A stretch of DNA of 64,000 bases from Vitis vinifera (taxonomy: Eukaryota; Streptophyta; Magnoliopsida; Vitales; Vitaceae): NCBI RefSeq assembly GCF_030704535.1, contig NC_081810.1:7202501-7266500 (forward strand), read 5' to 3'. The position numbers and the translations under genes were made by a program. The notes below the pieces were generated by a model. The model did no database searches and was not told the origin of the DNA. It saw only the letters and a list, made by a program, of their open reading frames with translations. Positions within the stretch are counted from its first letter, which is position 1. Each line of letters starts with the position of its first letter. This document shows positions 9,603 to 38,053 of this stretch, piece by piece.

Positions 9603-9738
9603 TATTATTATTTTTCAAAGCCCCAAAATCTATCCTTACAACTCAAGCCCAAAGCTCAACATTAAAGCCTTACTATATTTAATTAACCCAAAGTTTTATT
9701 TTCTTAATTAATTAAATTATGATTTTACCCTAGTTACA

Positions 9739-9995
9739 CAGTGTGGTCCTTTTTTCTGTCATCTGTTTCTTTCTCGTTCAAAAATGGGGAAACAGAGTTG
9801 TAGTAGAAAGAGCAACTACACCTCCAAGCCCTTCAAAACTTGCCATCATAGGCAACTTGCACCAACTAAGCTAATGGTCTTACCGTTCCCTTTGGACACT
9901 TTCCCATAAATATGGGTCTATCATGTTTCTCCAACTTGGTAGTGTTCTACCATTGTAATCTCTTCAGCTGATATGGCTTAATAAGTCTTGATATA
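9739..9995 (+). pseudogene. CYP71-type P450 exon-1 relic, unit A copy 1
   Basis: The fragment matches codons about 24-110 of the intact P450 at 13219. It includes the end of the membrane anchor (TTTCTTTCTCGTTCAAAAATG), the proline-rich hinge region and the IIGNLHQLS stretch. An in-frame TAA at 9872-9874 follows QLS. Homology fades into AT-rich DNA after ISSADMA. It is a dead 5' fragment, with no other P450 exon beside it. Confidence 0.85.
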
Positions 9996-12736: not shown

Positions 12737-13147
12737 CTTTAAAAATGATGACTTGAAATCAATAATTAACTATTTCAAGGAGTTAATGTTTTAGACTTAT
12801 CCAAAATATCATTTCTCTTTTTTTTTTCTTTTTTTTTTTTTGCATTTTTTTTTCCTTCTTCTTTTTCAATTTTTTTTTTCATTTTTTAACTAAATCAAAA
12901 TAGAAAAACTAAAACAATGAAGGGTGCCTAAGATGAAAAATGCGAAAACAAAGGGAAATGAAAAAAGAGATAAAAAAAAAAAAAAAAAAAAGCGCAGTTA
13001 TGAGTGATCAATGATAATATAAAAACCCAAAATTAGTTTAGTCGAAACAAAATATAAAAATTCATGTTTCATAGAGCCACCTACTTTTCTTATGTCAGGC
13101 TTGACTCCCTCAATTATTGTTAGCTGAGTGGAGGAAAATTTAGGGAC

Positions 13148-13155: not shown

Positions 13156-13218
13156 ACTGGGCTTCCATTGTTAAGGGACACCAAGCACAAACATCACTCA
13201 CCAGTTTCATAGAGCTTC

Positions 13219-14928
13219 ATGGCCATGGAAATCGCAGAAGCTGTAATGGAGGTCTTTTCTCCATCTTCTGTAACAGACTGGCTTTTCACACTCAGTGTGG
13301 TCCTTCTTTCTGTCCTTTGTTTCTTTCTCGTTCAAAAATGGGGAAACAGAGCTGTATTAGAAAGAGCAACTACTCCTCCAAGCCCTCCAAAACTTCCCAT
13401 CATAGGCAACTTGCACCAACTAAGCAAACTGCATCACCGCTCCCTTTGGACACTCGCCCAGAAACATGGGTCCATCATGTTTCTCCAACTAGGTAGCATT
13501 CCCACCATTGTAATCTCTTCAGCTGATATGGCTGAACAAGTCTTGAGAACCCGAGACAACTGCTGCTGCAGCAGGCCTTCGTCTCCAGGGTCAAAGCTGC
13601 TTTCTTACAATTTTCTGGACCTGGCCTTCGCCCCATACTCAGATCACTGGAAAGAGATGAGGAAGCTTTTCAATGCTAATCTTCTGAGCCCGAAGAGGGC
13701 AGAGTCGCTTTGGCATGCGAGGGAAGTAGAGGTTGGTCGCTTGATCAGCTCTATCTCCCAAGATTCACCTGTCCCAGTTGATGTGACACAGAAGGTATTC
13801 CATCTTGCGGATGGCATTCTTGGTGCTTTTGCTTTTGGAAAGAGTTATGAAGGGAAGCAGTTTCGGAACCAGAAGTTTTATGATGTTCTTGTGGAGGCTA
13901 TGAGAGTATTGGAGGCTTTCTCAGCTGAGGACTTCTTCCCAACAGGAGGGTGGATCATAGATGCCATGTCTGGACTCCGAGCCAAGCGCAAGAACTGTTT
14001 CCAAAACCTTGATGGTTACTTCCAAATGGTGATTGATGATCATCTTGATCCTACCAGGCCAAAACCAGAACAAGAAGACCTGGTTGATGTCTTCATACGG
14101 CTCTTGGAAGATCCGAAAGGTCCATTTCAGTTCACCAATGATCACATCAAGGCCATGCTCATGGTAATTAATTTCTTTTTCTGCTGTTGTTTTCTGGGTG
14201 GTTGCATTTTTATTTATCTTTTTTTTAGTTGTTAATTTTCAAGCATTAAGATAACCAAAATGTATTCTATTTTCCAGAATACATTTCTTGGTGGCACAGA
14301 CACTACCGCAATTACTTTGGACTGGACAATGTCAGAGCTCATGGCAAACCCCAGGGTGATGAACAAGTTACAAGCTGAAGTCAGGAGCTGCATTGGAAGC
14401 AAACCAAGAGTGGAAAGAGATGATCTTAACAATCTCAAGTACTTAAAAATGGTAATCAAAGAAGCTCTGAGGAAACATACACCAATCCCACTCTTAATCC
14501 CCCGTGAAACAATGGACTACTTCAAGATCCACGACAAAAGCAGCAGCAGAGAATATGACATTTACCCCGGAACAAGGATCCTAGTCAATGCATGGGGAAT
14601 CGGAAGAGACCCCAAAATCTGGAAGGACCCAGATGTGTTTTACCCAGAGAGGTTTGAGGACTGTGAGATTGAGTTTTATGGGAAGCACTTTGAGCTATTG
14701 CCATTTGGGGGTGGCAAAAGGATTTGCCCTGGAGCTAACATGGGAGTCATCACCGCAGAGTTCACATTAGCAAACCTGGTCTACTGTTTTGATTGGGAAC
14801 TTCCCTGTGGGATGAAGATAGAGGACCTTGGCCTTGAAGAAGAGCTGGGTGGCATCACTGCTGGCAGGAAGAAACCTCTTTGCCTTGTTGCTAGGAGATG
14901 TGGTTGCAGTTGCACTGAGCCTATGTGA
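13219..14928 (+). CDS. CYP71-type cytochrome P450 monooxygenase (intact, 531 aa)
   Basis: Two exons, 13219-14163 and 14278-14928, are joined across a 114-bp phase-0 GT-AG intron (ATG|gtaatt, tttccag|AAT) at the position usual for CYP71. The protein has an N-terminal membrane anchor (about residues 18-40), a proline-rich hinge PPSPPKLPIIGN (about 52-63), the I-helix GGTDTT (320-325), the ExxR pair E377/R380, FYPERF (436-441) and the haem loop FGGGKRICPG with Cys465. All catalytic landmarks are present. It should be an ER-bound haem monooxygenase using NADPH-P450 reductase; the substrate cannot be told from sequence, and CYP71 enzymes act on terpenoids, phenolics, coumarins and others. At 531 residues it is slightly long because of a Cys-rich tail (CGCSCTEPM). 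A second ATG two codons on (13225) could also start it. It is the parent-like copy of the deletion derivative at 2155. Confidence 0.9.
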
Positions 14929-15089
14929 CTGAAAGCTGTGGTAGGAGGGTAGTAGTCTCCAGCATTCATCACTCTTCCATCAATGATGATGAGTTGGGGA
15001 AGAATAATATTATCTTTCTTTAATCACTGTATTAGATCCTCTATCCAGAAGTTCCCCTTCTTATGATAAAGCTGCTCGCTTTGAGCTTT

Positions 15090-18000
15090 GGGAAACTTGT
15101 GTTTTGGAGCTGTTATTTCAGAATTATATGGTTTTCGGAATAGACAATAGGAAATATGATAATCAGCTTTTCATATGAAAAGTATTATTGTTTTTGTGCA
15201 CTCTGAGCTGGCTTTATCTTCTATGCCCAAATTGCCCCTCCGTTTCTCCAGCTCAATATCCTCAACATCATCCTAACTTCCATGTCAACAGGACCACTAA
15301 AATTAAGAAAAAACACTAAATTACGAATCTTTAACTTCTCAAAAAAGGAAAAAAAAAACACCCAACCCGACCACCTAATCTAAATACTTTCTTCTCTCAT
15401 TTGGAAAATCTCTCATTTTTCTTCACTCCCAACAACCCAAAATTTCTCTAATTTCAATTCATAAACCCAAATCCAAAACTCCAAGGTGGTGTCAAAATGC
15501 ACCTTTCAGCATGCCTCTGATTGAGATGCCTTAGCTAGGCGATTGCCTTGAGCCCTAGCCGTAGCTGACTCTCGTCTAGGAGCCATGGGGGTCCGAGAGA
15601 ATTCAGGAAAAACGAAATAGAGCTTAGGTGGAGAGAGTAGGTACCCAAAAATTGAAACCCTAACCTCCAAATGCTTCCTAGACTCGCAAATATGTGTCCA
15701 AGATAGCTTTATCAGTGAGAAATAGCACCAAACATCTCTTTTAGGCTACTAAATCAGTGAAGCCCTTGAAGAACTAGAGGAAACGATGTAGAAAATGAAG
15801 CGCGGGAGACTCTTAATGTATTAGGTCCCGACGAATTGGTTTATCTATCCTCAATTAGGAAGAAAAGTCTACTGGAAGAGAGAGAATGTTTGATCTTTTT
15901 TGGTATTTTGGTAAATATACCTTAGGTACTACTTTAATTGCCCTTAGATACTACCTTAATCTACTTTAGGTACTACCTTAACTGACCTTAGGTACTACCT
16001 TAACCAACTTTAGGTACTACCTTAACAGACCTTAGGTACTACCTTAGTTAAATTTGTGTACTACTTGTGTGAAGGCTTGGAATTTCATTTGTGGATATTA
16101 CTTACTTCATTTGTGACCCTTAAAGCATGCCATTTTGTGATTAATTAGTGTAGTTGGTTGGTTCACCTATGGTATTTTGGTTACTGTACCTTAGGTACTA
16201 CCTTAATTTACTTTAGGTATTACCTTAACCAACCTTAAGTACTACCTTAGTTAAACTTATGTACTACCTGTGTGAAGGCTCGAAACTTCATTTATGGATA
16301 TTACTTACTTCATTTGTTACCCTTAGAGCATGTCATTTTGTGATTAATGCTATTGGAAGAGAGAAAATATGTTTTGCATCTTTTGACCGACCTTGATCGA
16401 GAAGGGTTAATCGGTTGACCGGTTTTATGTCTAAAACTGAAAATGACACCAACCCGCTCCTAGACAGTTGAATGAGTTGAAGGTGAACACGGGAAATAAA
16501 GAAAAAAAGACATTTGTGGCTAAATCATGAAAGCATAGAAGGACAAATAATAAAAATTGTGTCCATGATGAAACAACTATTGACTCTTATACCAACCCGT
16601 ATTTATTCATGTATGTGAATCATTTGAAGGATCAATATCATCTCTACTACAAGATTTAGTTCCTTCATTTGCTACCCAGACTTCATGGGTTTTAATAATG
16701 GGTACGTAACTACCTAAACAAGATGCTTCAAACCATACGAGGTTTTTTTTTATTTCTATTATTATTTTTATATTTTGGTCGTAATGCTATGCTTGGGTAC
16801 ATTTGTCTTCATTCAGGTCAAATTAATATTGATAAAGATAATTTTTTCCAAAATCAAAAGAATAATTGGATTGAAAAAATAAAGAATATTTAACCATCTT
16901 ATTATTCTATGATGGACATGAAAAAATAGATGGAAAACAAGAGGAGAGAGGGTCCATTGATGTGTCTACCCATCTTTGAGGTATCTATTTTTTTTTTATT
17001 AAAATTAGAATACCTTATTTATAAGTCATACATGTATAAATAATATAAAATAAAAATATAATGCTTTTTATAAATTAATAAATATTCATTTATCGATAAA
17101 TCAATAACCCTATTAAGATAATAATTTTTCTTGGTCTCAAAAATATTATTTATAAGGTTACACAAAAATATTGTTACAAGTTACACAAGATTCATTCCAT
17201 TGGTAACTGATATTGTTGTTGTTGAGGAAATAGGCAAATCTTAACCAACATCTATATATGATAATGAGAATTACAAATAAGAGATTTGTGGTAAATTAAA
17301 CAACATATCCCTAAATTTGCATTAACTAAAAATATAAGAATCAATTCATCTAAACAAAATACAACTACTAGATAACAATAAAAATGTGGAAGGGTCAAAC
17401 TGCATCTACAAAGTCCATAGAAGTAGAAGCTACAACTCCTAGTCTTTTGTCTCTCCAGTGCAATCCAATATCTGCATAAGTCATAGGAACTTGTCATACA
17501 TCTCAATAAAGAAATAGTATTGATTTTTAGAGACGATAGTTAGGTTAAAAGCTAGTACCCACAATCATTGAAGTTTCTTGTAGCGGCGGATTAGCTTTAG
17601 CAGCTCAGTTCCATGAATCTCTAAAGCATAACTCAGGTTGAAATAGGTCAAATTTGAGCAAATGGGGTAAATAGCTAGCATTGTAGTTGTCATAGTTGCT
17701 ATTATGAATTACTATTGCAAAAGATAGTACAAAACGTACATAATTCACACATGTATACCACATTTTAGGATAATAACAATTATTATTGAGTAAAAAATTC
17801 AAAATATAACAAATCAAGCTTAACTAAGGTAGTTACTAAGGTCGGTTAAAGTAGTACTTAAGGTAGATTAAAGTAGTACCTAAAGACTATTAAGGTAGTA
17901 CCTAAGGTATAATCACTAAAATACCAAAGGTGAACCAATTAACTACGCTAATTAATCACATAATGGCATGCTCTAAGGGTCACAAATGAAATAATTAATA

Positions 18001-19400
18001 TCCACAAATGAAGTTCTGAGTCTTTCACACATGTGGTATATAAGTTTAAATAAGGTAATACCTAAGGTCGGTTTATGTAGTACTTAAAGTAAATTAAGGT
18101 AGTACCTAAAGTAGATTAAGGTAATACCTAAGGGCTATTAAATTAGTTACTAAAGTAAAGTCACCAAAATACCATAGGTAAACCAACTAACCACACTAAT
18201 TAATCACATAATGATATGTTCTAAGGGTCACAAATGAAGTAAGTAATATCCACAAATGAAGTTCCGAGCCTTCACACAAGTAGTATGCAAATTTAACTAA
18301 GGTAGTACCTAAGGTCAATTAAGGTAGTGTACCTAAAGTGGATTAAGATATATAGTACCTAAAGGTTATTAGGGTAGTACCTAAGGTACAGTCACCAAAA
18401 TATCATAGGTGAACCAACTGACCACACTAATTAATCACAAAATGACATGTTCTAAGGGTCACAAATGAACTAAGTAATATCCACAAGTGAAGTTCTGAGC
18501 CTTCACACAGGTAGTACGTAAGTTTAACTAAAGTAGTACCTAAGGTCGGTTAAGGTAGTATCTAAGGGCTATTAAGGTAGTACTTAAGGTACAGTCACCA
18601 AAATACCAAAGGGGAACAAACATTCTCTCTTTTCCAGTAGACTTTTATTCCTAGTCGATGACCGATCAACCGATTCGTCGAGATCCAATACTTTAAGAGT
18701 CTCCTGCATTTCATTTTCTGCATCGTTTCCTCTAGTTCTTCAAGGTTTTCGCCGATTCAGTAGTCTAAAAGAGATGTTTGGTGTTATTTCTTGTTGCTAG
18801 AGCTATCTTGGACACAAATTTGCGAGACTAAGAAGTATTTGGAGGTTAGAGTTTCAGTTTTTGGGTACCTACTCTCTCCACCTGAGTTCCATTTCATTTT
18901 TCCCGAATTCTCTTGGACTCCCATGGCTCCTAAACAAGAGTCAACTGCGGTTAGGGCTGAAGGCAAGAACTCAGCTAAGGCGTTTCAGTCAGAGGCACGC
19001 CGAAAGACGCATTTTGACACCACCTTGGAGTTTTGGATTTGGGTTTTTTGAACTAAAATGAGAGAAATTTTGGGTTGTTGGGAGTGAAGAAAAATAAGAA
19101 AGGAAAACATTCAAATTGGGTGTTCGAGTTGGGTGTGTTTTTTATTTTTTAGAAGTTAAAGATTCAGAATTTAGTATTTTTTTTTTTTTCAATGGTCTTG
19201 TTAACATGGAGGTTGGGATGGTGCTAAGGATGCTGAGCTAGAGAAATGGAAGGACAAATTGGGCATAGAAGATGGAGTCAGCTCAGAGTTCACAAAAATG
19301 ATAATACTTTTCATATTAAAAGTTGATTCTCATATTTCCCATTGTTGGGTTCCAAAAACCATATAATTCCCAAATAGCAGCTTCAAAACACAAGTTTCCC
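15090..19400. mobile_element. Fold-back Mutator-like element, non-autonomous, unit B
   Basis: This is the counterpart of 2930-7375 and inserted at the same site. It begins GGGAAACTTGTGTTTTGG and ends CAAGTTTCCC, flanked by TTGAGCTTT (15081-15089) and TTGATCTTT (19401-19409), which differ at one base. Long inverted arms contain TTAGGTACTACC-type arrays (left about 15910-16310; right about 17820-18600). No transposase is visible. It is 135 bp shorter than the unit A copy, mainly through differing repeat numbers. Confidence 0.85.
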
Positions 19401-19849
19401 TTGATCTTTTCCTCAACACATGTGTTTAAGTTTGTGATATTTTCTCTCTTTTTGAAATCCACGTGATGTTATATCAAGAAGAAATAAGAAAAAAGAACTG
19501 AAAAAAACCATATAAATATCAAATTAACACATGAGTCATGATTCTTTTTTATAAAAGCATGATTTCTACTACTATAAAAGGGTTAAATATAACTCCATGA
19601 ATTGGTTATTTACCTTTTGCCTTTAATTATAATAGCAAAAATTCTAGCATAGAAATGAAATCCATGGCAGGAAACTAGGAGGAATATGAGAAAAATTAAT
19701 TGTTTATAATTAATGTTGTTGATACAATCACTTTGAGAAATGGCTTGGACCAAGGCTTATTTAACATTGAGGTTATATTTGGTTCTCAAAAAGTATATTA
19801 AGGAAGGAAAAAAAAATATTGAGAAAAATTATTTTTTTCGTGTTTGGTT

Positions 19850-20905
19850 ATATTATAGAAATACGAAAGAATGAGATATGAGTTTATAGAGATTATACGA
19901 GATGGATAGAGATGTGAGGAAGAATGGAAGACACTCGGTGGAGTGGAAGGGCTCATAGTTCAGGGTGTGGATATAAGGAGTGGGAAAGTGTGGAATGTTT
20001 TGGTAACCTAATAGTTGTATTTGGTTCTATCCTCTGTAATATTCTCTATGGTACAACAAAAAGTTTTTCTCTCAATTGTGAATGTAGATGTTGTTGGTCA
20101 AACCATGTTAAAACTCTGTGTACCTTTGTGTCGATTGTTTTATCTTTTTGTGAGCCTGAGTTTTAAGATTTCTAAAAAACCAAAAGATTATAAAGGAATT
20201 TTGATTGAAAGTGGAGTTGATTGCTCTTTTGTTGGGATAGATATAATACAAAAAGAGTAAATCATGGAAATATGGAAGATTGACTTAATGGAATTTGATC
20301 CAAGGTGGAGATTGTTGAAAAGTGTCTCAAATTACTAATTAGTGTAAATTCCTTTTTTTATAAAGAATATTGTATAAAATATTTCTTAAGTTGATGTATC
20401 ATTGTAATATTAGATTTCCTTATAGTTAATGAGGAAATTTATTAAGAATGTCTTTATAAATATTTTAGGTCATCAGGAGAAAAGGTCATGAGATGAAGAT
20501 GTGTTTGTAGAGACTTGTACAAGATAGATAGAAATGTAAGGAAGAATAGGAGACATCTGGTGGAGCAAGGGACTCATAGTTTAAGGTGTAAATACAAGGA
20601 GTGGGGAAACATGAGATGTTTCGAAAGCCCAATAATTGTATCTGGTTTTGTGCTTTTTAATATTCTCTATGGTATAATGAAAAGATTATGTATCATCTAT
20701 GGATGTAGGCATGGTTGGTCGAACCATGTTAAAACTTTGTGTACCTTTTTATGAATTGTTTTATTTTTATGTTCTTGAACTAATGTTGTTTGCATTAAAG
20801 TTTCTATTGGCACAACACTTGCATGAGGTGACTAACCTCAAAATGTTCCTTTTACTAGTGGATAAAATGATTTCCAATAAATGGTATATCAAAGGCCAAT
20901 AACAT
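19850..20905 (+). mobile_element. Worn Copia-type LTR retrotransposon remnant, unit B
   Basis: This is the counterpart of the remnant at 7800-8870. It has a direct-repeat pair (about 19990-20160 and about 20515-20790), a purine-rich CAAGGTGGAG tract, and an apparent LTR start TGTTGAAAAG at about 20313. It has no recognisable coding region. It is broken and old, and was inserted before the segmental duplication. Confidence 0.6.
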
Positions 20906-21808
20906 CATTATTGTCTAGGGTTGCATTGCATTACTACCTCCATTAAAGGTAATAAAGGTTAACAACTTATTTTCTATTGACTAGGATCACTGATGACTAG
21001 AGTTTCCAAAATCATTATAATAAATTAAACATTAAAATTCACTTTAAAACAATAAACAAATCACACAATATTCCCAATTTATTTAATAAATTAAGGAACA
21101 AATCAAAATATATTTCAGAAAATTATTCCTTGATTTACTTTGGAAATTTCAAACACTTTGATACTACTAAAAATAGATGAAAAATAGGTAGAGAATTATA
21201 TAATGACTTATTTGCACTATCAACCCTTACTAAGTTCGTAAATCCAAAGGAACAATGTTGTAGAAATTTCTTATGAATCACTTGAGAGATTTAAAGAAAT
21301 CCTTCAAATTAAAGTTTTGATAAATATTATACCCTAAGTATATATTTATTTATTATTTAATTATATACCAAAATTTAGTAAATTAATATTCCAAGAGAAA
21401 TATCGAATTTTCATTTCTTTTATTCACTTAACTTGTTTTTTAAAACAATTATTCAACCTTTTTTCCTTAAGGACTTTTAGTCGAATGTTTTTCTAGCATC
21501 CAATCATTTAAATAATTTATTTAATCTTTTATTAAGAACAATTCTTCTATACCTCAAAACCATACAAAAAAAACACTTCTATGATCTAACTTTTATGCAT
21601 ATTTAAGGGATAACCCAATCTATATATTTAGGTTTCTAATGGGAAAAGACAATTTCATCCTATGATTGATTGATTTATTATTATTTTTCAAAGCCCCAAA
21701 ATCTATCCTTACAACTCAAGCCCAGAGCTCAACATTAAAGCCTTACTATATTTAATTAACCCAAAGTTTTGTTTTCTTAATTAATTAAATTATGATTTTA
21801 CCCTAGTT

Positions 21809-22062
21809 ACACAGTGTGGTCCTTTATTCTGTCATCTGTTTCTTTCTCGTTCAAAAATGGGGAAACAGAGTTGTAGTAGAAAGAGCAACTACACCTCCAA
21901 GCCCTTCAAAACTTGCCATCATAGGCAACTTGCACCAACTAAGCTAATGGTCTTACCGTTCCCTTTGGACACTTTCCCAGAAATATGGGTCTATCATGTT
22001 TCTCCAACTTGGTAGTGTTCTACCACTGTAATCTCTTCAATTGATATGACTTAATAAGTCTT
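21809..22062 (+). pseudogene. CYP71-type P450 exon-1 relic, unit B
   Basis: It is collinear with the relic at 9739-9995 and shares its in-frame TAA (21945-21947), so the relic was already dead before the 11-kb duplication. It corresponds to about codons 24-110 of the intact gene and has no companion exons. Confidence 0.85.
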
Positions 22063-24403
22063 GATATATATGTTGATGTGAGAGATTCCTCTACATGCAT
22101 GTATATGTGAAATACATGTGATTTTTTATGGAGTCTTGATAGATATGGTTGAACAAGTCATGCGTTTTCGTCTTTTCTCTCTATTTGAAACACATGTGAT
22201 TTTATATCTTTCACATCAACGTATATGAGAAAAATTGTTCATCTATGATGTTGTTGGTATAGATATTTAGATAAATGACACTGACCAAGGCTAAATAAAA
22301 CACCTATGTTTGGTTCTCAAAAAATATCGAAAAATAAAGGAAAAAAATTGTTAAGAAAAATGATTTTTACATTTTTTTTATTAAAAGAAATATGAAGAAA
22401 AATAAAATATAATTTAAAAGTGATAGAAATTTATGTATTTTAAATTTATTTAATTTATACGTAATGAAGAAAAATGAGTTTAAAGAATCATGAAAACAAA
22501 TTAAATACTAAATTTGTTTTTTATTTTTATTTTTTTGTTTTTTCCTTTCTTTTATTTATTTATTTTTTATTTCTCTTACATATTCCCTCAAATTTCCTAA
22601 AACCCAACTAGTGTAAAAAGTGGTAAACTAATCGACTTGATAACATTTGATTGAACTAGGCAATTGAAATTTTGATTTGGTATGATATTCCCCCACAAGA
22701 TGGTAGGTCCCTTTAGAGATACCTGGCTCACACATCAAAAGGCAGCTCCCTTTTTAATTTGGCGGTTTGGTGACAAGATCTATGAAATGAATTAGCGTAA
22801 AGGTATATGAAACCAATGTTATAATGCTATGTTATATCATAGGAGCCTTGGTGATGGAAGTGCATCGTTTGGTTTTGAGTATCAAATTCAAACCAAGTCA
22901 TCTAATAAGTTTTTATGCATTAAGAATTGAGTAATTGAACTTAGACAATTAAATGATCGATTCAATTTAGTTTGGTATAATAATAATTGTTAATTTGGAC
23001 TAAAACCCAACAACTATATAATTGAATATTGTAGACAAAAAGTTTAAATAATATTGTTATAATAAATCACCTCATATTATTACAACTCATTTCAAATTGT
23101 ATTATTATAACCCAATGATATGAATAATTATTGTTATAGTTTATTTCAATTATATGAATCAACCCATACAAAAAAGTTATGTAAGTGTAGTTTAGGATCC
23201 ATTTAAATGTGAAGAATATACGTACATTGAATCCATAATATAACTAAATGGATATTACACATTATGAGTTTATATGTATAACTTTCATATTGATTTGATT
23301 TATTTTTTATTTTTTAAATGAAAAATCATGGATTGGATCTATCTGGTTCAATTTTAGGTTTACAATAGCAAAATTGTTAAAAATTTAAATCTATTTTCAA
23401 AAAATATTAGACAACTAATGTTTACTTTTCACAATACCATGAAATGAGATTACTAACAGAATAAATAATGTAACGGTGGTGGATGATTTAGTATTGTCAT
23501 TTTTAACCTAATGGATGTATAGAAAAACTTGAAGATCTAGAGGTTGACACTTCTTATCGTTTTATACCTAATCAACATCCAAATAACTTTGAAGATGCAT
23601 GCTTTATGAGACTCATGTAGATTATTTTTTGAGATAGTTTAAAATCATCATATGAAGTATTTTTTGAGATAGTCTAAAAGCCTAGCCATCATCCATCAAT
23701 AATATTTCATGTAGTGAAAATTATTAACCATGTCCCTTTAATAGAGTATTATTCTTTTCCTAAACATGGTATTAAATTCATTATCTATTAATAGAGAATT
23801 TGGTTTTAATAAATGGCTTACCATAGTGATCAAGCAATCATACCATACTGCATTTATTTTTATTAAATAGTACTTTTTGTAAACAAAGAAAGTATCTTTA
23901 TTTATGTTGATTTTGTTATCCTATTTTAACTATATCCTAAATCCAACAAAAAGACATTATTTATGTTGCTTTTGTCACTTTTTCTTTATATTATAAATCC
24001 TTGCTTGTTTTATAAAGTAAGAAAAAGGAGGTGAAATGATTGAATAAATGTAAATGATATATATTTTAAAAAATGATGACTTAAAATCAATAACTAACTA
24101 TTTCAAGGAGTTGATTTTTTAGACTTATCCAAAATATCATTTCTCCTTTTTATTTTCTTTTTTCGGTTTTTATTTTCTTTTCCTTCATCTTCTTTTTCAA
24201 TTCTATTTTTTTTTTTTTCATCTTTTAACTAAATCAAAATAGAAAAAACTAAAACAATGAAGGGTGCCCAAGATGAAAAATGCAAAAACAAAGGGAAATG
24301 ATAAAAAAGAGGAAAAAAAAAAAAAAGCGAAGTTACGAGTGATCAACGATAATATAAAAAACCAAAATTAATATAGTCGAACAAAATATAAAAATTCATG
24401 TTT

Positions 24404-26215
24404 GGTGATAACAATAAACTAAAATTCCTTGAAGCATGGTGATAACAGTAGAATTCGTGTTTGAGAGATGTATCAAATCACTCTTTATGTATATATATTT
24501 TTTAATTAATTTCAAGGCAAGGTGGCAAGGACATATGGTTCATGTGAAGAAGATGAAGACAAGGCTCAACATACCGACATGGAAGAGGTTGGTGGCATTA
24601 CCATCTCTAGAGACTTTTTGGGTCCGGTGGGTGGCTTTATCATGATCAGGACACCCTCTTTGTTTTGTGCCTATAAAATATGGTTGGGTAAACTGTAGAG
24701 TGGGTGTGAAAATGAACCAATTGACATGCTCTCATCAGTGGTTTATAACTTGTAGTTGGATCTCCTAATATTCTATTGCATATATATGCATTTATGTGTA
24801 TCAGATTCTTCATATCTAGTGGGTTGAATTTTGGAAAATGACCCAATTGAGAAGCTCTATCACATGGGCTTTTACTCATGTCATCTTTTATTATTTAATA
24901 AACAAACATATTTTATTATTTATTAAATTTAAAAAACTAAAATAATAATCTTATTTAAATAACATTTCTAACTCTTATCAAACTAAAATAAATATGTTTT
25001 TCTTTCATGTCTTTTTTTTTTTTCATGCTTTGATATTGATATGAAAGTGGAGACATTTGAAACAAAAAATAGGTTTTAATGTTGTGACATCTATTATAAT
25101 TAAAAAATAAGCATATTTTAAATTAAAAATTAAATTTTAAATCTAGTAGATATTAATTTTATCATCATTATTATTTATTGTGATGAATATTTTTTATTTT
25201 AATTAAAAATAATAATGGAAAAAATAATGTGATTGAGATTTTCTTTTTTCTTTTTAAAAAATATATTAATTTGTTCAAATAAGTATAATTATTTTATACT
25301 ACATAATTTCTTTATTTTTCACTTTTCCAATGTGCTATGAGAAAATTCTAATTTTGAGGAAAAAAATGAATTTTATAATCATTAACAATAATTAAAAATA
25401 ATTATTTAGGAATGCTTTTTATTTTATATAAATAAAAAAATTATTTATAGAAAAAGAAAAGGAGAAAAGAGTTGATAAAATTAATATAAATAAAGAAGTT
25501 ATTGCAAATCTCTTCTCTACTCCACACAACGGGAAGATAGATAAGAGTTAAAAAAGACATGAGATTTTTCAGAGATACGTACTAAGCATTTTCTCTCTTC
25601 TAGTATCTTCAACTTCGCTATTTCGTGGCGCATTTACCATTTTCTCCTTATCGATGTGGATTAAAATAATAGATTCACAACAGTTTTGATGAATTTGAGG
25701 AAAGGATGACAGTCTAATAAATATCTAAAACGTTAAGTGTAAAAAAAATTGTCCCAACAAACCTGCACATCACACCTCATCGTGGTATATATCTTCTACA
25801 CACACCTATATATACACGGCGTGAGCCCATTAGGGACATGTGGAGGGTTCCATTTTAATAAAGTTACCTTTTGACAATAGTGATCATTGCATTTTGAATA
25901 CACCTCTCAACACTTGGAAAATTAATCTTCCTATGAACTTAAATTCCAATATATAATTCATTTATAGCACCATCATCAAGCTCATTCATTGAATACAATT
26001 ATTAGATAATAGCGTCCCTACATGGTAAGGGAAGGCGGCTACGTGAAAAACGAGGGCGCAGTAGAGATGGTCCTAGATTCCCAGCTTGCAGAAAGAAGAG
26101 TCCAAGGGGTGAGCCTACCGAGAAGAGGAAAAATTAGAAGGATGACGGCATGTCTTCAATCTTCACCTCTAAATAGAATTCTATATATCCAAATAAAAGC
26201 ACACCTTATCCCTCA
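24404..26215. other. Intergenic DNA between the duplication and the third P450
   Basis: This is AT-rich apart from the P450 3' relic. TATATATA at 25807-25814 is a possible TATA box for the gene at 26216, which would imply a leader near 370 bases. A 65-codon frame at 26022-26219 ends at the P450 start and shows no similarity I recognise; it may be leader sequence. I see no other gene. Confidence 0.5.
24540..24740 (+). pseudogene. P450 3'-end relic
   Basis: The stretch resembles the last part of exon 2 of the P450 at 26216: GACATGGAAGAGGTTGGTGG (VGGIT region), then CACCCTCTTTGTTTTGTGCC and AAATATGGTTGG (the PLC-VPIKYG end), followed by 3' UTR-like ATGCTCTCATCA. The VGGIT segment appears twice in worn form. 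The rest of the gene is missing. It marks a lost P450 between the duplicated units and the third gene. Confidence 0.7.
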
Positions 26216-27914
26216 ATGACCATGAAGATTTCAGAAAACATGTTGCTCCTTTTCTCTCAATCATCTGCAAATCAATGGCTTCTCGCCCTCGGCATACTAT
26301 CTTTTCCTATCCTCTACCTGTTTCTTCTTCAAAGATGGAAGAAGAAAGGCATTGAAGGAGCTGCTAGGCTTCCTCCAAGCCCTCCAAAGCTTCCCATCAT
26401 AGGCAACTTGCACCAATTAGGCAAATTGCCTCACCGCTCCCTCTCGAAACTTTCCCAAGAATTTGGCCCTGTCCTGTTACTGCAACTTGGGAGGATTCCC
26501 ACCCTACTGATCTCATCGGCGGACATGGCCAAAGAAGTGTTGAAGACCCACGACATCGACTGCTGCAGTAGGGCACCCTCCCAAGGCCCCAAGAGACTTT
26601 CTTACAATTTCTTGGACATGTGCTTCTCACCGTACTCTGATTACTGGAGGGCGATGCGGAAAGTGTTCGTTCTTGAGCTTCTAAGCGCGAAAAGGGCACA
26701 CTCATTGTGGCATGCGTGGGAAGTAGAGGTTAGTCATTTGATCAGTTCTCTCTCCGAGGCTTCACCAAATCCAGTTGATCTCCATGAGAAGATATTTTCT
26801 CTTATGGACGGCATCCTCAATATGTTTGCTTTTGGTAAGAATTATGGAGGAAAGCAGTTCAAGAATGAGAAGTTTCAAGATGTTCTTGTTGAGGCCATGA
26901 AAATGCTGGATAGTTTTTCTGCCGAGGACTTCTTTCCGTCTTTTGGGTGGATTATAGATGCTTTGACAGGACTTCGTGCTAGGCACAATAAGTGTTTCCG
27001 TAACCTTGATAATTACTTCCAAATGGTTGTTGATGAACATCTTGATCCCACCAGGCCAAAACCAGAACATGAAGACCTTGTTGATGTTTTGTTAGGATTG
27101 TCAAAAGATGAAAATTTTGCATTTCATCTCACCAATGACCATATCAAGGCCATTCTCCTGGTAAAACACACATACTTCTTCCTCAATTATCATTGTTTGA
27201 TTGAGTTGGGAACCAATTCTGCTTTCTTGCTCCTCTGTTTTCATTCCTTTTGAGTTGATTTTCACACCTGAATTGTTTTTTCAGAATACATTTATTGGTG
27301 GAACAGACACTGGTGCAGTGACAATGGTCTGGGCGATGTCTGAGCTCATGGCAAACCCCAGAGTGATGAAGAAGGTACAAGCTGAGGTCAGGAGCTGTGT
27401 TGGAAGTAAGCCAAAAGTGGACAGAGACGATCTTGCTAAGTTGAAATACTTGAAGATGGTGGTCAAGGAAACTTTTAGAATGCATCCAGCAGCACCGCTA
27501 TTGATTCCACACCGGACGAGGCAGCACTGTCAGATCAATGCCAATGGCTGCACATACGACATCTTCCCACAAACAACAATCCTAGTTAATGCATTTGCAA
27601 TTGGAAGAGACCCCAATAGCTGGAAGAACCCAGATGAGTTTTACCCAGAGAGGTTTGAGGACAGTGACATCGATTTCAAAGGGCAACATTTTGAGCTATT
27701 GCCTTTTGGGGCTGGCAGAAGGATCTGTCCTGCTATAGCCATGGCAGTGTCCACTGTGGAGTTCACACTGGCCAACCTCTTGTACTGCTTTGACTGGGAG
27801 ATGCCAATGGGGATGAAGACACAAGATATGGACATGGAAGAGATGGGTGGCATTACCACCCATAGGAAGACACCCCTTTGTCTCGTACCAATCAAATATG
27901 GTTGCGTGGAGTAA
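26216..27914 (+). CDS. CYP71-type cytochrome P450 monooxygenase (third copy, 524 aa)
   Basis: Exons are 26216-27160 and 27285-27914, with a 124-bp phase-0 intron (CTG|gtaaaa, ttcag|AAT) at the same site as in the gene at 13219. Both first exons encode exactly 315 residues. Motifs are the membrane anchor (about 18-42), PPSPPKLPIIGNLHQLGKLP, the I-helix GGTDTG (320-325), ETFR (E377/R380), FYPERF (434-439) and the haem loop FGAGRRICPA with Cys463. Alanine replaces the usual glycine two residues after the cysteine, which the P450 signature tolerates. The enzyme should be ER-anchored. It is clearly related to the duplicated copies but more distant than they are from each other, so it is an older paralogue and its substrate may differ. 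ATG at 26222 is an alternative start. Confidence 0.9.
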
Positions 27915-28846
27915 TGTGAAAGGAGCCTATTGAGATGCTCTCATCACCTGACCTTGTAGTGCTCTTAGCTGTAAAAGATTCTCCATCTTTAATGGAAGTT
28001 GGGAGTTTCATTTCATGGCCTCTAGATTGTTTGTCGTGATATGAGAAAATTAAATAAAATAACCTCCTTAAGAGTGTTGAGTCACATCTACATAAGACAT
28101 TTGATACAATTTGCAGATATTTATTGCATGGATGTATTTGGTAAGGAACGTGATTGCCAACCAAAAATTATCAAGAATGAGATAATTCAATATATATAAG
28201 TTTATGACAAAATTATGATGGTTGGGCTGAAAAATCATAAGTCATGTAAAACAAAATAGTCCTGATTTTTTTTATAATTGAGACATGTTAAGGAAAGAAG
28301 GCTAACAGCTCATAAGATATTTATGGCTTTTTGTGTTTTAAATTAAAAATGTAATTATGATTAAGGAGGGTAAGATGTGTATCTTAATTGGGTTTTGGAC
28401 TTTAGATAATTGTTATGTTATCATCCAAGTCCCAATCTACTTCTAGTGTGTAATAGTGTTCATTTAGATACCACTAAGTTACTATAGCAAATAGGAACCC
28501 CAAATTAAGTGATCCCAATAATCCCATTTGTGAAGACTTTATGAAATGAAAACAAGTTGAGAGTTTAAATCTTGCTTGCTTATGGAACACTTAGTGGGGG
28601 GTGAATAGATACTTCTTTCCTTTAGCTCAAATATCTATTTTTAAAATTTCTTGAATTAGAGATGAATTAGAGAAATTCAATTTCACCAAGAAATAATGAT
28701 TTACATGAAAAACTACCTACAAAATCTCCTAAAAACTTTGTACATCTAAAAACAAGTCAGAAACAGTATAATTATAATTTACTAAATATGAAGAAGTAGT
28801 ATATAAATTTATCTAACGGATCGTTATTCCTTGAAACTTACACTTT
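27915..28846. other. Intergenic DNA after the third P450
   Basis: The first 150-200 bases are probably the P450 3' UTR. The rest is AT-rich, with no coding exon or repeat end that I can support. Confidence 0.5.
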
Positions 28847-29607
28847 GGTTGCGTTTGTTTTTTTGACTTAATTCTAAATAGAACTTATATTTAACTTAAT
28901 ACTAAATAATGTTTAATAGTATTAAGTATTGAATTGTTTGTTTTTTTAATATTTTAAGTTATTTGTTTTTTTATATACTAGAAACCAATATCTTAATATT
29001 TTATTATTTTCTTGCAAAAATAACATTTTCTTTTAAAATAAATTATAAATAATTGAAATATATTAAGGACATTTATATAAAAAAAAAAAAATAGGTTACT
29101 CTTCCAACAAAAACATGGCAAGGGCTAAATCCACAATTGAGTATGATAGCTGGGAGAACAATCAACCTTTGCTCCCCCAGTGAAACCAGAGAAGACAGCC
29201 TGCAAAAAAAAAAAATCAAATCTCTTTTCCCTAGACACCGTTTGATCATTTGGTAGCACATGAAGCTGATTTAGTGGAAACTGTAAGCAGATCACTTTGA
29301 TATGGTGTTGAAAAGAAACACTAGGCAGAATCTTTGATATGGATGAAAGAAAAGATTGGCATAAGAGAGGAAAGAAAAATGAAAGAAAATGAAAAGACTA
29401 CAAGAAATGTAAGTCTGTTCCTACAGAGAGCCATTTTACATACAGGAAACCCAGCTCACATGTACTATGAAGGGGGAAGTGAAGAAATTCCCTGTAGGTT
29501 AAGGTTGAGGGGAGGAATTAGCACCTGTTATCTTCCAAGATACAAAAACCGATAACCAGGCACTTCATATATAAACACAGTCGAAAGGAGGTACCACCTG
29601 ATTCCTA

Positions 29608-29921
29608 GTTTACTTTTCTCGTTCAGTCTTCCTCTGGTGCATTTCCTGCGATGACTTCATATCACTGTCCTTTCTAGTTGTGGGAGAAATGCTCCCCTGG
29701 TGGCTTTGGACTGGATGGATTTGGGGGTTGTATGTTTGAGAAGCAAGGTAGTTTAAAGCAGTAACGACATCAGCTATGAGAGGCCGCATGTTAGGTTGCT
29801 CCTGCATACACATTGCAGCAATGGCAAGAGCTTGGTACAAACCTCTGACAGGATACTAACCATGGAGTAATGGGTCAGCCATCTGTGAGAATTTCCTCCG
29901 GTCTTTGAACAGGGGTCGTGC
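29608..29921 (-). pseudogene. Receptor-like cytoplasmic kinase (RLCK-VII/PBL type) last-exon relic
   Basis: The minus strand reads from an intron-like acceptor (tttgcag) into ARPLFKDRRKFSQMADPLLHG, then a stop (CTA on the plus strand, 29856-29858), then [16 protein letters not shown] and [19 protein letters not shown], and a short polar tail. This is the C-lobe end of PBS1-like kinases, which usually read [17 protein letters not shown] here. The stop falls where that Gln would be (CAG to TAG). The upstream kinase exons are absent, so this is a dead fragment inside the candidate Pack-type element. A TGCCTGCAAACAGAAGG stretch at the exon edge is repeated about 53 bp away. Confidence 0.85.
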
Positions 29922-30177
29922 CTGCAAACAGAAGGGAGTCTTTAGGCCTGATGGACGAAATTACAAACTTTGCCTGCAAACAGAAGGTTACTTTTTTCCA
30001 ACAAGTAACCTTGGATAAGACTATGCAATGAATAGCATAGACATTAAAGATGGAAACTGATTCACTCAATTAAAATATTTATAACCTTACTAATACTAAA
30101 AGTTACATGCATCACAACTGCAAAATGCCAAACCATGGCCCATTTCAATCAAATACATTGCCTAATACTAAATAGCT

Positions 30178-30500
30178 TTGCTGGCTAGCAGATTACTTGT
30201 AGCTAGTTCATTCTCTTTGAGTCCTCCAAACATTCACCTGGATTATGTTGTATTTTCACAAATACAAAGCCCTGATGTATGCTCATACAACATTATGATT
30301 AAGGTCTTTTCACAAACTTCACATCCACTTGATTCCCTCCACTTTTACCACAAGCTGCTCCACCAAGGCCTATACCCTAATGAGTACAGTTTCTGTTTTG
30401 TGCTCACTTCATGTGCCCAAGCCTTGGCTCTCCAAGAGGGCAAACAAATACAAGCCCAATTAATCAAACACCTCTCTTTGGGCAGTGTCTATGCTAGTAC
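30178..30500 (+). pseudogene. PPR-protein fragment
   Basis: An open stretch without an ATG start reads like the N-terminal part of a PLS-class pentatricopeptide protein: FSQIQSPDVCSYNIMIKVFS, then HFYHKLLHQGLYPNEYSF and LALQEGKQIQAQLIKH. That covers about two repeats. It stops abruptly near 30500, where LRR sequence begins. PPR proteins normally act in organelle RNA processing; this piece is too short to do so and has lost both ends. Confidence 0.8.
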
Positions 30501-30700
30501 TTGACAAGGAACAATCTGACGGGGCAGATTCCCTTCCATTATGGCCATATGTCGAAATTGCTAATTCTGAGGCTTGGGTGGAACAGTCTAACAGGGGTTA
30601 TCCCATTTGCTTTGGGAAACCTTTCATCTCTTCAGCAGCTTTCAGTGGCATTCAATCATTTGGAGGGGGGTATTCCACATGATTTAAGAACTCTAATGGG
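30501..30700 (+). pseudogene. LRR receptor-kinase fragment fused to the PPR fragment
   Basis: Frame 30501-30749 gives TRNNLTGQIPFHYGHMSKLL, then WNSLTGVIPFALGNLSSLQQ and FNHLEGGIPHDL. That is about three 24-residue repeats with the NxLxGxIP pattern of LRR-XII (EFR/FLS2-like) receptor kinases. No signal peptide, membrane segment or kinase is present. It joins the PPR piece within a few bases, in a different reading frame, so the pair is a chimera formed by DNA joining and not a natural gene fusion. Confidence 0.8.
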
Positions 30701-31064
30701 CATCCTAACAAACAGTTTGAGCGCAAATGCTCTACCCAACAAACTATAATATGAAATCAATAAGATTAAACCCAAAATTTTCTTATATTTTCCTTTAGGT
30801 TTCAACAATCAAACAAACCATCAAATCCTAATAACCCAACAAACCACAAAATCACATCAATCAAACAAACCCAAAATAACAATGAGACAACAACCATATC
30901 AAACGGGCTCTAAAAACACATGAACTCAAAAACCCTAAACAGAGCACTTGGATATGTGAACCAGAATAGAGAATGAGAGTTTTAGAGAGAGAAGTACTAG
31001 GAAATGAGACTCGACTGTTCTATTGAAATCCTAAAACCCAAAATAAATTTGGGTTGAGGGTTAC

Positions 31065-31245
31065 CTTCGATCAGATCAACGATGTCGAATGAAAGTGGAG
31101 CGTCTTTCCAATTGTATAGTCTCGGATGGAGAGCGATGGATGAGGAGAATGAAGAAATTACCGCTTTGGGGATGAGGTGAGGGTTGAGGATCGCCGGGTG
31201 CAGAGAGCTGCAAGGGATGGGTGGGTAGGGTTCGGTTTGAAAAAC
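31065..31245 (-). other. GC-richer leader-exon-like piece inside the Pack-type candidate
   Basis: On the minus strand a GC-richer, CT-rich stretch (CTCTGCACCCGGCGATCC region, then CCATCGCTCTCC) ends ATCGAAG|GTAACC, a good splice donor. It looks like a plant 5' UTR exon with the start of its intron. I do not recognise the source gene. It stands out from the AT-rich surroundings and is probably a fourth captured fragment. Confidence 0.4.
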
Positions 31246-31543
31246 TGATTGAATTTTTCTATTTAGCTAAAAATTTAAAAAATTCATAATAAATCATCAA
31301 AAACTAAAAAAACAAACGTGACATTAGTCCTATATCTAAGATGCACCACCACTATGTTCCTTAATGAATCCTCAATGCCTTAAAAGGAATGTGAATCTCC
31401 CTCATGAACTCCAAAAATGAATCATGAACTTTTTGAAAGTTTTGAGTTAAGTGCAAAAAATAATGACTTTAAAGTTTAGACACATAAGTTTTTTAGATAA
31501 TTCTCACAACATGCATATATGAGAGAAAACCTAATAGACTTTG

Positions 31544-31820
31544 GGTGGTGTTTATTTTTTTACTTAATTATAAATAAAACCTTAATGTTTAATAATGTTG
31601 AATATTAAATTGTTTATTTATATATTTTTATTTCTATTAAGTATTAAAAAGTAAAAAAAAAATAATATGTCATTTTTTTTATTTAGAAAAACTATATATT
31701 TTAGTTTTTTTCTATTTAATAAAAAGTTTATAATAAGTTATGGAAAAAGTAGAAAAACAAATAATCTAAATTCTAAAAACAAATTATTTTCAACAAAAAA
31801 TAAAAAAAATAAACACCACC
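31544..31820. mobile_element. Short TIR element (MITE), same family as the Pack-type candidate
   Basis: The ends are inverted repeats: GGTGGTGTTTATTTTTTT on the left and its complement AAAATAAACACCACC on the right, 277 bp in all, AT-rich and without coding capacity. I could not settle the target duplication, so the superfamily remains open. It lies only about 220 bp from the larger relative at 28847-31320. Confidence 0.65.
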
Positions 31821-32819
31821 TTGGAATCAATTTGACAATCATATTTTACTAAAAAACAATTTAGAAATTGAAGAATTTTAAAAATATTTAAAAAGATTTC
31901 ATATTTTAAGTTTAAAAAGATTTGGGAAGATTTTCTTTTTAAAATTCATAATTTAAATTCCTTTTCAAACTTCTTAAAAGATTTGGAAAGATTCACTTTT
32001 TAAAATTTTCAATTTAATTATTTTTCAAAATAACTTCATTATTTAGAAATATTTTTCTTTTTAAATTCTCAATTTAAATTTTTTTTCGAATTAATTTTCT
32101 TCTTATTTTTTATAAGTCCAAGTTTATACCTTTTACATCATTATTCTCATTTAACTCCACCATACTCACATGTTTTTAATCTTAGGTTGATTTTGTAACA
32201 ATCTTGAATGGAATAAATCACAAAAAAAGTACATAAAGTTTTAAATCTAAATGTATGGACCAAAAATTATCAGCATAATTTAAATTATCTAATACACTAA
32301 CACAAACTATGTGATCTCACAAGACTTTAGGGGAAATCCGGGCTACTAGCCACTACAAGGAAGAATAGAGTACTCGTATTGTCTTGCTTCATGCACATGA
32401 GTAGCCTTTGTCACTTTTGTAGAGGCCTTTAACTGTTCTTATTACACTATTAATAGGGTTTTTTACTCGTACATAAAACAAAGAAGACACCTTATTAGCT
32501 ATGGTTTAATAAAAAAACCTTGTGTCAGGTACTTTAGGTTGGAGTAAATGTTATTTCCTTAGAGATAATGAAAACCTAAGTAGCTTCAATTTAACATATG
32601 ATTTAGGGATCTTCCTAAATTATTCTTCTACGAGTCAAACTAATAAAGTATATAATTAAGTATCAAAGTAGTTTAAGAAATTTTCAACATAATCATAGAC
32701 AACTTAAATAGTACCTATATTTGGTGATAATGATTTAGGTTTGAACACTCAAAATGAAATTGAGAGAGAATTATAATCTTTAGATAATTTATTTTTTATG
32801 CAAAATATTGAAATCATGT
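31821..32819. other. AT-rich spacer, nothing recognised
   Basis: Several worn direct copies of an AAAGATTTGGRAAGATT motif occur at about 31890-32060. I see no gene. Confidence 0.5.
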
Positions 32820-34837
32820 TGTGGATCCTGTATTTTTCATGTGCGTTCCCACTCGACGGCGTGATTCGTTTTTTATTTATTTTGTGAAAATTTGATTTTT
32901 TTTTTAAAAAGACTTGGAGTCGACACTTATTTTTGTTTTATTTTTTAAGTCTTAAAACAAAATAAAAAAGAAAAACCCTAAATGTAACTCCTGAAGGAAA
33001 AACAGGTTTGTGAAAAACCGAATCTGGGTTTGGGGGTCAGGTCACCTATTGGAAAGGTACGGTGGTAAGCCGTAGCACTCCTCTAAACTCGTATACATAT
33101 GGTTTTTACTAAAAAAATTAAAGGAATTGTGGCAATCAATTAATTAATTATAGATACCAAGAAAAATAATCAAGCAAATGAGTATGTACAAGTCATAGTG
33201 AAAATCAATATACACAAAAATAATGATGAAATCTAATAACAAAAATATACAAAATAAATAATAAGAGAATTATACAAAATGATTTATTGAACTAAAAAAA
33301 TACTAAAAAAATAGTTTTCAAAAAATTTCAAAGGATTTTGTTAAAAATAATTTTGAATTAATGATTTCAATTTATTCATTTACAAAAAAAAAAAATTTAT
33401 TTTCTCAATCTCATTTGTATTGAATTTTCAAAAAGGTTATTTACACTTATTGTATCAAAAGAATTTATTAAAAAAATTTCAATTACAAAAATTATTTTTA
33501 CTCGCTTTTACTAGAAAATAATGAATTTTTACAATTTTATTTACAAAAGTATTTTGATTCATTTTCATTTTAAAAAAAAGTAATTTATACAAATTATTTA
33601 AAAAGACATAACTTTATTTGCAAAAGAAATTTTAATTAAAAAGAAAAAAATTGGATCGTCCATTTCTAAAAAATATTTTTAATCCCATTTTAATTAGGGA
33701 AAAAAGGAATTCATTTAAAAGAAACATTTTTTTTGGACAATTTTATCAAAGAATTAATTTTTGGGGCAACTTTATTTACAAAACAATTTTTGGACAATTT
33801 TTATTAAACAAAGAAATTTTTGGACAATTTTATTAAAAACAATTTTTCAAATTCTACGAAAAACAATTCTTTTGGATTTTTCTAAGTGCATTTTTTTGAA
33901 TTTTCATAAAAAAAAAAACTTTCTTTAATTAAAAAAAATATTTTAAAATTATTATTTTATTAAAATATATTTACTGAACTCTTTATCTCATTTAAACAAA
34001 ATTTCTAGTTTGCTTGATATTCAATTTTGTACATACTCAATAAATATATACAAACGAATATTTACAAAAACTAATAAAAATAAAACTAAATAAAAGTAAA
34101 AAATAAAATATGTACCAAAATAAACTTACAATAAGTTCAACGTCTTCCTACAACTTGTCAAGTCTCACTTTCTTTCATAAAATTTCGTGTTCCACATGTC
34201 ATAAATTCGTACTCAGCCAATAAGATTGCAAAATGGGTCCATGTAAAAACAAAAATAGCTCAAATGTAAATATCCAAAAATGTACAAAGTTCAAAACAAA
34301 AATTTTCTAAACTTCAAATTAGTCCAATAAATTTCAGCAATTAAAAATAGGTCCAAATTAACAAATATAACCTAACAAAAATATCTTACATATCATAAAC
34401 TCTAATATGAAGTTTCCAAATTAGTAGCCAAAATATAAGCTGAATTAATCAAACCCAAAATATGATAAATTAAAATTAATATTCCATAATCCAAACCCAA
34501 TTTAATATGCAAACTTAAATCCACAACCAAAATCAACCCAGTTTAATATACAAACCTACATCCAAAATACACCACAATATTATATTATATCCAAATTAAA
34601 TAATTAAAATGAGTACAACCATATAAATTATCAATTAATCTAACTCAAATTAATCAATTCTAAATTAATTCATCAACAATAAATTATCTCAAATTTCATA
34701 TTAATTTATCAATAACAAATTAACCTAAATTCCATATTAATTAACAAAGCTCAAACATAAGGCCTACAAATGAACATAAATGCACAAACCCAATTTCAAC
34801 AACAATTAATATTAAAATCAAATAATAAAAAAATTGC

Positions 34838-36377: not shown

Positions 36378-38053
36378 GGGCTTTTTTAACTTCTGTAGCA
36401 GTTTTAAAAAATAATTTTTAAAAAATGGTAGTTGAGAAAATATTGATAGATCTACGGCAGTTTTGGCTACGTGGAAGGTGTCAGACACCTTCCACAATTT
36501 TTAAAATCATGGAAGAAGTGAATTTAAGTTAAAGGTGTCTCTTGAAGAGACACCTTTTACAATTCCATAAATTTTGATTTATATTAAAGGTGTCTCTTGA
36601 AAAGACACTTTCCATGTGGCAAAAAATCTAACATGCATTAAAGGTGTCTCTTCAAGATACACCTTCCACAATTTGAAAATTTTGAATGTCTCGTAATTTT
36701 GAAGTTAAAGATGTCGCTTAAAGAGACAACTTCTACAATTCTTAAAAATTTTAATTTATACAAAAGGTGTCACTCGAAGAAACACTTTCCACAATTCCAC
36801 AAATTCCAATCTATATATACTAAAGGTGTCTCTTCAAAAGACACCTTCTACAATTCCAAAAAATTGGATTTATACTAAAGGTGTCTCTTAAAGAGACACT
36901 TTCAGTATAAACCTAATTTAAAAAAAATTATGGAAGGTGTCTCTTCAAGAGACACCCTTCAATATAATTCTATTTTTTGGGAATTGTGAAAGGTGACTTT
37001 TGACACCTTCCACAATTTTAAAAAAAAATTTGAAGAGACTTTCCACAATTTTCATTTAAACACAGGAAAATTTTGAATTTATGCTAAATGTGTCTCTTGA
37101 AGAGACACCTTTCACAATTCCTAAAAAAAATGGAATTATACTTAGACGTCTTTCATAATTTTTAAAAAATTGGGTTTATACTGAAAGTGTCTCTTCAAGA
37201 GACACTTTCCACAATTTTCATACTAGAGATGTTCTACGGGTCTCTTTGCTTTTGTGCCATTCGATTTAAATTTCAAGAATGCAAAACCCCCAATGAAAAA
37301 AAAAATGCCTTTGTTTTTTTGCTCCTTGTGCTTTCTGGAGATGTTCTGCAGGTCTCTTTGCTTTTGTGCCATTGGATTTAAATTTCACAAACCCTAAATC
37401 CACGATTTTTGAGCCAGGCTGAAAAACACAACCTTTTCCCCACAAATCATGATCAGATTACCAAATACAATCTTATGTTTTTTTATAAAAAAAAAAAAAA
37501 AAAAATTGGACTGACGAATATTGTGTCGGAACCGGCGGAAAAAAAAAATAGAAACAAAATTCGTAACTTTCCCACACTTTCTTGGCAACCAAACAGAATC
37601 ACAACAAGCCGAACCATAAAAAAAATTAAAACTTTCTCCATAATTTTTATCATACTCGATTTCATTGTTAAAAAAAAACGAAAACTTTAATTTTTTTTCA
37701 ACTTTTCCACACTTTCTTGGCAGCCAAACAGAATCACAACAAGCCAAACCATAAAAAAAAAAATGAAAACTTTTACAGAAAAAACCGGGGGCAATGGTCT
37801 CTCAGATCTACACTTCATTTTCTTCTTATTGGTATTGAGGCAAGGATCTCCACTCTGTGATTGGCGTGCGGGAAAATGGGTTTTGGGGCAGAGGACAAAA
37901 TGATTTTTGAAGCAGAGAAGAAAAGAAGAAAACAGGTTGGGGAAATGGGTTCATCCTACGTGTTAAAAAGTGCCGTAGAATTGGAATTATTTTCCAATCT
38001 ATGGTATTTTAAAAATTATTTTTTCCAATTGCTGTATATTTATCAAGAATCCG
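36378..38053. mobile_element. Non-autonomous TIR element carrying hairpin repeats
   Basis: Ends of about 110 bp are inverted copies of each other (shared blocks AAAAAATAATTTTTAAAA and TCTACGGCA, and a CTACGTG/CACGTAG pair). The element is flanked by TCTTTTGAC (36369-36377) and GCTTTTGAC (38054-38062), alike at eight of nine bases, with a perfect 8-bp core CTTTTGAC. That fits a Mutator-like 9-bp duplication with one change, or a hAT-like 8-bp one. The interior has the palindrome array (36470-37210), two tandem copies of a stretch starting GAGATGTTCTACGGGTCTCT (about 37225 and 37337), and two of CCCACACTTTCTTGGCAACC (about 37570 and 37709). No transposase is seen. Confidence 0.7.
36470..37215. 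repeat. Array of 21-bp palindromes (GGTGTCTCTTGAAGAGACACC)
   Basis: About ten or eleven copies of a near-perfect palindrome, GGTGTCTCTTSAAGAGACACC with variants, are spaced about 50-65 bp apart, with one wider gap at 36960-37080. Between them lie TTCCACAATT and short AT spacers. Each copy could fold into an 8-10 bp stem. It is not a CRISPR array: the spacers are repeated too and the genome is a plant nuclear one. Confidence 0.85.

Follow-up and report, generated by a model that had tools for sequence, protein, structure and literature searches.

A decayed candidate Pack-type element with PIF/Harbinger-like ends and pieces of kinase, PPR and LRR receptor genes in grapevine DNA

The region extending from 28847 to 31323 of the window (the whole stretch of grapevine DNA analyzed, 64,000 nucleotides) is best read as a Pack-type element. 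It carries an inverted repeat at both edges, a left end resembling that of a neighboring MITE, and unrelated gene pieces between these edges. With slightly better than even confidence, we regard it as an old non-autonomous cut-and-paste DNA transposon of the PIF/Harbinger type that would have taken up pieces of at least three host genes.

28847..31323, no strand: candidate non-autonomous Pack-TYPE element, PIF/Harbinger-like, 2477 bp, with inverted ends agreeing at 15/18 positions, a left end in common with the MITE, and host gene pieces inside

On direct reading, this region has the appearance of a decayed, non-coding element of about 2.5 kb. No transposase frame was seen in it, the longest stop-to-stop frame being a 110-aa PPR piece. 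The gene pieces belong to different families and lie on both strands inside 2.5 kb, in support of the Pack-type reading. A BLAST search of the window revealed no second copy of the element, the only matches being the MITE and short, weak AT-rich segments. The case for the element is its anatomy in one window and in a single decayed copy, from which we infer its mobility, the mechanism of capture, and its superfamily.

Host gene pieces inside the element

Four pieces of the element were submitted to a Pfam scan, the kinase piece in two versions.

29610..29921, minus strand: RLCK-type kinase last exon, with acceptor TTTGCAG followed by GCACGACC and an in-frame TAG at 29858-29856
30172..30501, plus strand: PPR gene fragment of about 110 codons (PF13041)
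30498..30749, plus strand: LRR receptor fragment, with Pfam LRR matches to about 30695, in a different frame from the PPR piece
31065..31240, minus strand: GC-richer, ATG-free, leader-like stretch (putative exon) ending at donor AAG followed by GTAACC, with the GT at 31064-31063

The PPR piece matched PF13041 above the cut-off (E = 5.3e-8) in a frame that starts at 30172 and ends at a stop codon at 30502-30504. The LRR piece matched PF00560 (E = 2.7e-8) and PF13855 (E = 6.3e-7), both above the cut-off. In the PDB, plant LRR receptor kinases, such as GSO1 and FLS2, were on top for this piece among the best 60 of 190 distinct sequences. The sequence-only reading had placed PPR repeats and LRR-receptor repeats on the plus strand, abutting within a few bases, and both families were confirmed by these matches, the pieces meeting within about 5 bp near position 30501. 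Since the frames of the two pieces differ, no fusion protein is encoded.

The kinase last exon, proposed on the minus strand, matched no Pfam family in either version. The part located after the stop codon, taken alone, matched three PDB sequences, all CERK1, with E values of 0.036 to 0.042. When the upstream part was included and the stop was replaced by X, eight PDB sequences were matched at E ≤ 0.001, led by ScRIPK (2.1e-6) and PBL2 (1.1e-5), with CERK1 at 1.3e-4. We take ScRIPK and PBL2 to be members of RLCK-VII. These matches identify the piece as a kinase C-lobe, and its membership of RLCK-VII is likely. The proposal of a kinase last exon was thus borne out once the piece was read across the stop, with the acceptor kept and an in-frame stop present. 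Downstream of the exon, its 3' UTR probably extends to about 29100. By eye, the acceptor motif CTTCTGTTTGCAGGCA (minus strand) is present twice, 52 bp apart, in 29921-29990, which points to a second possible acceptor.

The leader-like stretch is GC-richer than its surroundings (51% in 31101-31200 versus 32-39% in the neighboring 100-bp steps), and no ATG is present on the minus strand between 31260 and 31060. Its donor reads GATCGAAG followed by GTAACC. Comparison with Pfam and the PDB revealed no relative of this stretch, and its designation as an exon is therefore putative. The DNA that follows the donor, to about 30710, is presumably intronic. Thus, the composition and the splice donor of the GC-rich leader exon initially described on the minus strand were both found, and its exon status is best treated as provisional.

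Since the leader-like stretch and the kinase exon occupy the same strand, arranged 5' to 3' as in a single gene, three sources may suffice to account for the pieces. They would then represent the opposite ends of a single kinase gene, the middle of which was replaced by PPR and LRR scraps, giving three sources and not four. We advance this possibility tentatively and consider it unlikely. The leader donor and the kinase acceptor share a strand and stand in gene order, and the lack of an ATG in the leader is as expected of a 5'-UTR exon, but the leader-kinase link is without sequence evidence and the leader without detectable relative. This origin is compatible with the transposon explanation, and both can be true together. 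Of the three or four unrelated genes originally claimed, kinase, PPR and LRR genes are supported as sources by the comparisons above, whereas the fourth, the leader, may belong to the kinase gene. A spliced leader-kinase RNA coding for a kinase was rejected, because the leader is devoid of ATG and the kinase frame contains a stop. It is also conceivable, if highly improbable, that the element is a new minus-strand transcription unit, in which a captured promoter and leader at the right end would be spliced to the captured kinase last exon, the intron harboring the PPR and LRR pieces in antisense orientation. The resulting chimeric RNA could silence kinase, PPR, and LRR receptor genes via small RNAs.

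Ends of the element and the neighboring MITE

The features present at the edges of the element, together with the MITE that follows in the same orientation at a distance of 220 bp on the right, are listed below.

28844..28846, no strand: candidate decayed 3-bp target-site duplication, left copy, TTT, 2/3 match with TTA
28847..28864, plus strand: left terminal inverted repeat, GGTTGCGTTTGTTTTTTT
28847..29093, no strand: AT-rich left subterminal block, the first 75-120 bp of which match the MITE left end, the inner half being not above shuffles locally
31240..31323, no strand: AT-rich right subterminal block, about 60 bp of which (31254-31316) match MITE positions 31707-31761
31306..31323, minus strand: right terminal inverted repeat, reading TGTCACGTTTGTTTTTTT on the minus strand
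31324..31326, no strand: right partner of the target-site duplication, TTA
31544..31820, no strand: Tourist-like MITE, 277 bp, with perfect 18-bp inverted repeats GGTGGTGTTTATTTTTTT and flanks TTG and TTG

In inverted comparison, 28847-28864 and 31306-31323 agree at 15/18 positions, including four of the outermost seven. The 13-bp core of the ends, CGTTTGTTTTTTT, is exact and, at zero mismatch, unique in the window; allowing one mismatch adds positions 28935 and 37308, and allowing two adds many T-rich places, the ends of the element being themselves T-rich. An exact inverted match of 13 bp was reached by 15/5000 shuffles and by none of 928 window pairs at equal spacing, using 40-mers that were placed after seeing the ends. 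When the left end was aligned locally with the reverse complement of the right end, the result was ordinary in two tests (362/2000 and 53/1000 shuffles as good). The perfect 18-bp repeat of the MITE was submitted to the same procedures and reached 0/5000 in the exact-core test and 117/2000 in the local test. Taking this repeat as real, the local test is therefore weak for short T-rich repeats.

Aligned locally in the same orientation, the left ends of the element and of the MITE gave a score of 55 (shuffle mean of 26.8), reached by 0/2000 shuffles and by none of 460 AT-matched window segments; the inverted comparison with the MITE right end scored 29. In global alignment of the first 120 bp, 0/1000 shuffles were as good. 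The inner half of the left block behaved differently in the two types of comparison, since 799/1000 shuffles reached its local score and 27/1000 were as good globally. The local result led to rejection of the possibility that the left block is a whole MITE, although the global one leaves room for a trace of the MITE in the inner half. At the right end, the local score with the right part of the MITE was 44, which was reached by 10/2000 shuffles and by 3/590 window segments, all three overlapping, and 5/1000 shuffles were as good in comparison with the whole MITE. This match stops at position 31761, leaving 59 bp to the end of the MITE, and when the right end was compared end to end with the terminal 120 bp of the MITE, 74/1000 shuffles were as good. 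The claim that the ends of the element match both ends of the MITE in order therefore holds for the left end and, loosely, for the right.

The short and weak matches obtained by BLAST in the window, at 79-188, 22551-22584, 24919-24962, and 32927-32968 for the MITE and at 12827-12882 for the element (E values of 8e-6 to 3e-4), were taken for AT-rich noise. A MITE suspected at 54716-55015 from BLAST pieces was rejected, as no matching terminal repeat was detected by eye. Three 61-bp tandem repeats are located just right of the MITE, at 31915-32094.

The window as a whole has the look of plant nuclear DNA. Cytochrome P450 genes were recognized by eye at its left, from open frames, with P450-like frames at 2149, 13213-14928, and 26177-27914. 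Blocks 2271-10750 and 14445-22825 are copies of one another, their aligned pieces (about 3.7 and 5.0 kb) being 88-89% identical. Each block harbors one of the two copies of an element with inverted arms of about 1.2 kb (2930-4184 with 6157-7375, and 15090-16348 with 18199-19400). These arms are 82-85% alike, their outer ends start alike, and they hold 22-bp tandem repeats of a GGTACTACCTTAA-type motif. Degenerate tandem copies of a unit of about 59 bp, which contains a hairpin-forming GTGTCTCTTAAAGAGACAC core, form an array at 36483-37209. The window gave no match in Rfam at gathering thresholds. A pattern scan of a viral contig collection with the left end of the element returned no match, and the end sequences were not found by a letter search of the available literature, a weak negative since main texts rarely print such sequences.

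Superfamily assignment and rival explanations

The ends of the element and of the MITE were compared over 14 bp with seven PIF/Harbinger termini tabulated in the available part of PMC6327408. All four ends agreed with the Harbinger terminus at 11/14 positions, a value equaled by 31, 6, 12, and 5 of 5000 letter shuffles, uncorrected for the seven termini and in a register chosen with the family in mind. The two ends of the element, among the four ends, also agreed with the tabulated ZmPIFa at 11/14 positions. Agreement with the other PIF termini of that table was mostly 6-10/14, as exemplified by DcMaster and PePIF1 (7-9/14). The right end of the element begins with TG, not GG, and the 3-bp flanks are TTT and TTA at the element and TTG and TTG at the MITE, versus mostly TTA/TAA for PIF/Harbinger. 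The element is accordingly described as PIF/Harbinger-like, a designation drawn from terminal sequence and short of proven membership.

Chance nesting is the main rival of the Pack-type reading, and a live one, although we consider it doubtful. Unrelated duplicated scraps, originating from break-repair filler DNA or degenerate local duplications, would have piled up in an intergenic graveyard, a relative of the MITE would have landed on the left, and the T-rich right side would resemble an end by chance. An intact target-site duplication is absent, the match of the right end to the MITE is weak and non-terminal, the inverted pairing was ordinary in two of the three tests, and the window is rich in rearranged duplications, all of which such an accumulation would accommodate. 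It accounts poorly for an exact 13-bp inverted core found at both edges of the fragment block, for the strong homology of the left end to the MITE, and for the 60 bp of the right block in common with it. The Pack-type capture initially proposed for this region thus retained the inverted repeat at the edges, the MITE-shared left end, and the unrelated pieces, and was weakened by the right end, by an inverted pairing that stood out in only one test out of three, and by a decayed target-site duplication.

The remaining alternatives involve other types of transposons. Moving the ends inward by 3 bp gives the flanks ACTTTGGT and ACATTAGT, which match at 6/8 positions, as might be left by a hAT-type element with an 8- or 9-bp target-site duplication. 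A grapevine precedent is Hatvine-6, which carries variable transduplicated DNA and is listed, in the part of PMC2528002 available, with a 13-bp TIR, variable length, and transduplications. The same source gives a 9-bp duplication for Hatvine-6, whereas no 9-bp candidate passed the scan filter here. For the MITE, the same scan gave no 8-bp duplication where its perfect 18-bp repeat ends (TTG and TTG being found instead), the one 6/8 candidate lying at an asymmetric boundary, and the termini are PIF-like in look. A hAT origin is therefore improbable. A Helitron with captured gene fragments is scarcely credible. Helitrons may contain several genes per element, but inverted repeats at the ends are not known as a feature of these elements. 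A scan for CTRR followed by T, preceded by a stem (minimum 6 bp and 50% GC), found none on either strand of 28500-32000. Captured host sequences are nevertheless reported for many maize Helitrons in the portion of PMC13317346 available.

On the preferred Pack-type reading, the outer ends would have been recognized by a transposase supplied from elsewhere, which would have mobilized the whole interval. Faulty repair, or remobilization of neighboring same-family insertions, is the probable route by which the host pieces were acquired. The conservation of a splice acceptor and a splice donor suggests that DNA, not cDNA, was captured. The related MITE located in the same orientation 220 bp away fits this proposal, as it indicates that such neighbors occur here, but proves nothing on the acquisition of the cargo. 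The copy would now be a fossil, with its decayed target-site duplication, its broken frames, and no transposase frame seen.

Comparison with known systems

The capture of gene fragments is already well described in plants, including grapevine, and the element would be another member of this group. According to the available sections of PMC2528002, grapevine elements of the MULE, CACTA, PIF, and hAT types carry transduplicated pieces of genes, among them a PPR fragment found in Cactavine-5. In the same sections, Pifvine-3 is a PIF family in which captured host exons and introns are frequent, with complete elements of 5.8-6.7 kb containing a transposase, in contrast to the 2.5 kb and the lack of a visible transposase frame observed here; the likeness is one of description. 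The MITE at 31544-31820 resembles the Tourist-like MITEs described in the available part of PMC6327408 in being short and coding-free, with 18-bp TIRs and a 3-bp flanking duplication, although this duplication is TTG and the usual one TTA/TAA.

As one decayed copy, the element alone changes little. If the Pack-type reading is correct, it would be a further TIR transposon in which pieces from several families of plant genes, two of them kinase or receptor genes, are brought together in one unit. The maize Pack-PIFs presented in the accessible text of PMC8903248 are similarly non-autonomous, with PIF-like ends, host pieces inside, and related insertions nearby in the same orientation. The cluster described there differs in containing pieces of 163 and 58 bp, with 97-98% identity, in 72 and 4 elements, whereas the pieces analyzed here are longer, decayed, and present in one copy. 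According to that text, neighboring members of one family mostly share an orientation (12/13 PIF pairs in maize), and such local pairs are proposed to capture the DNA located between them. Should there be other copies in which these ends enclose different cargo, the element and its MITE would provide a small natural test of this model of capture by neighboring insertions.
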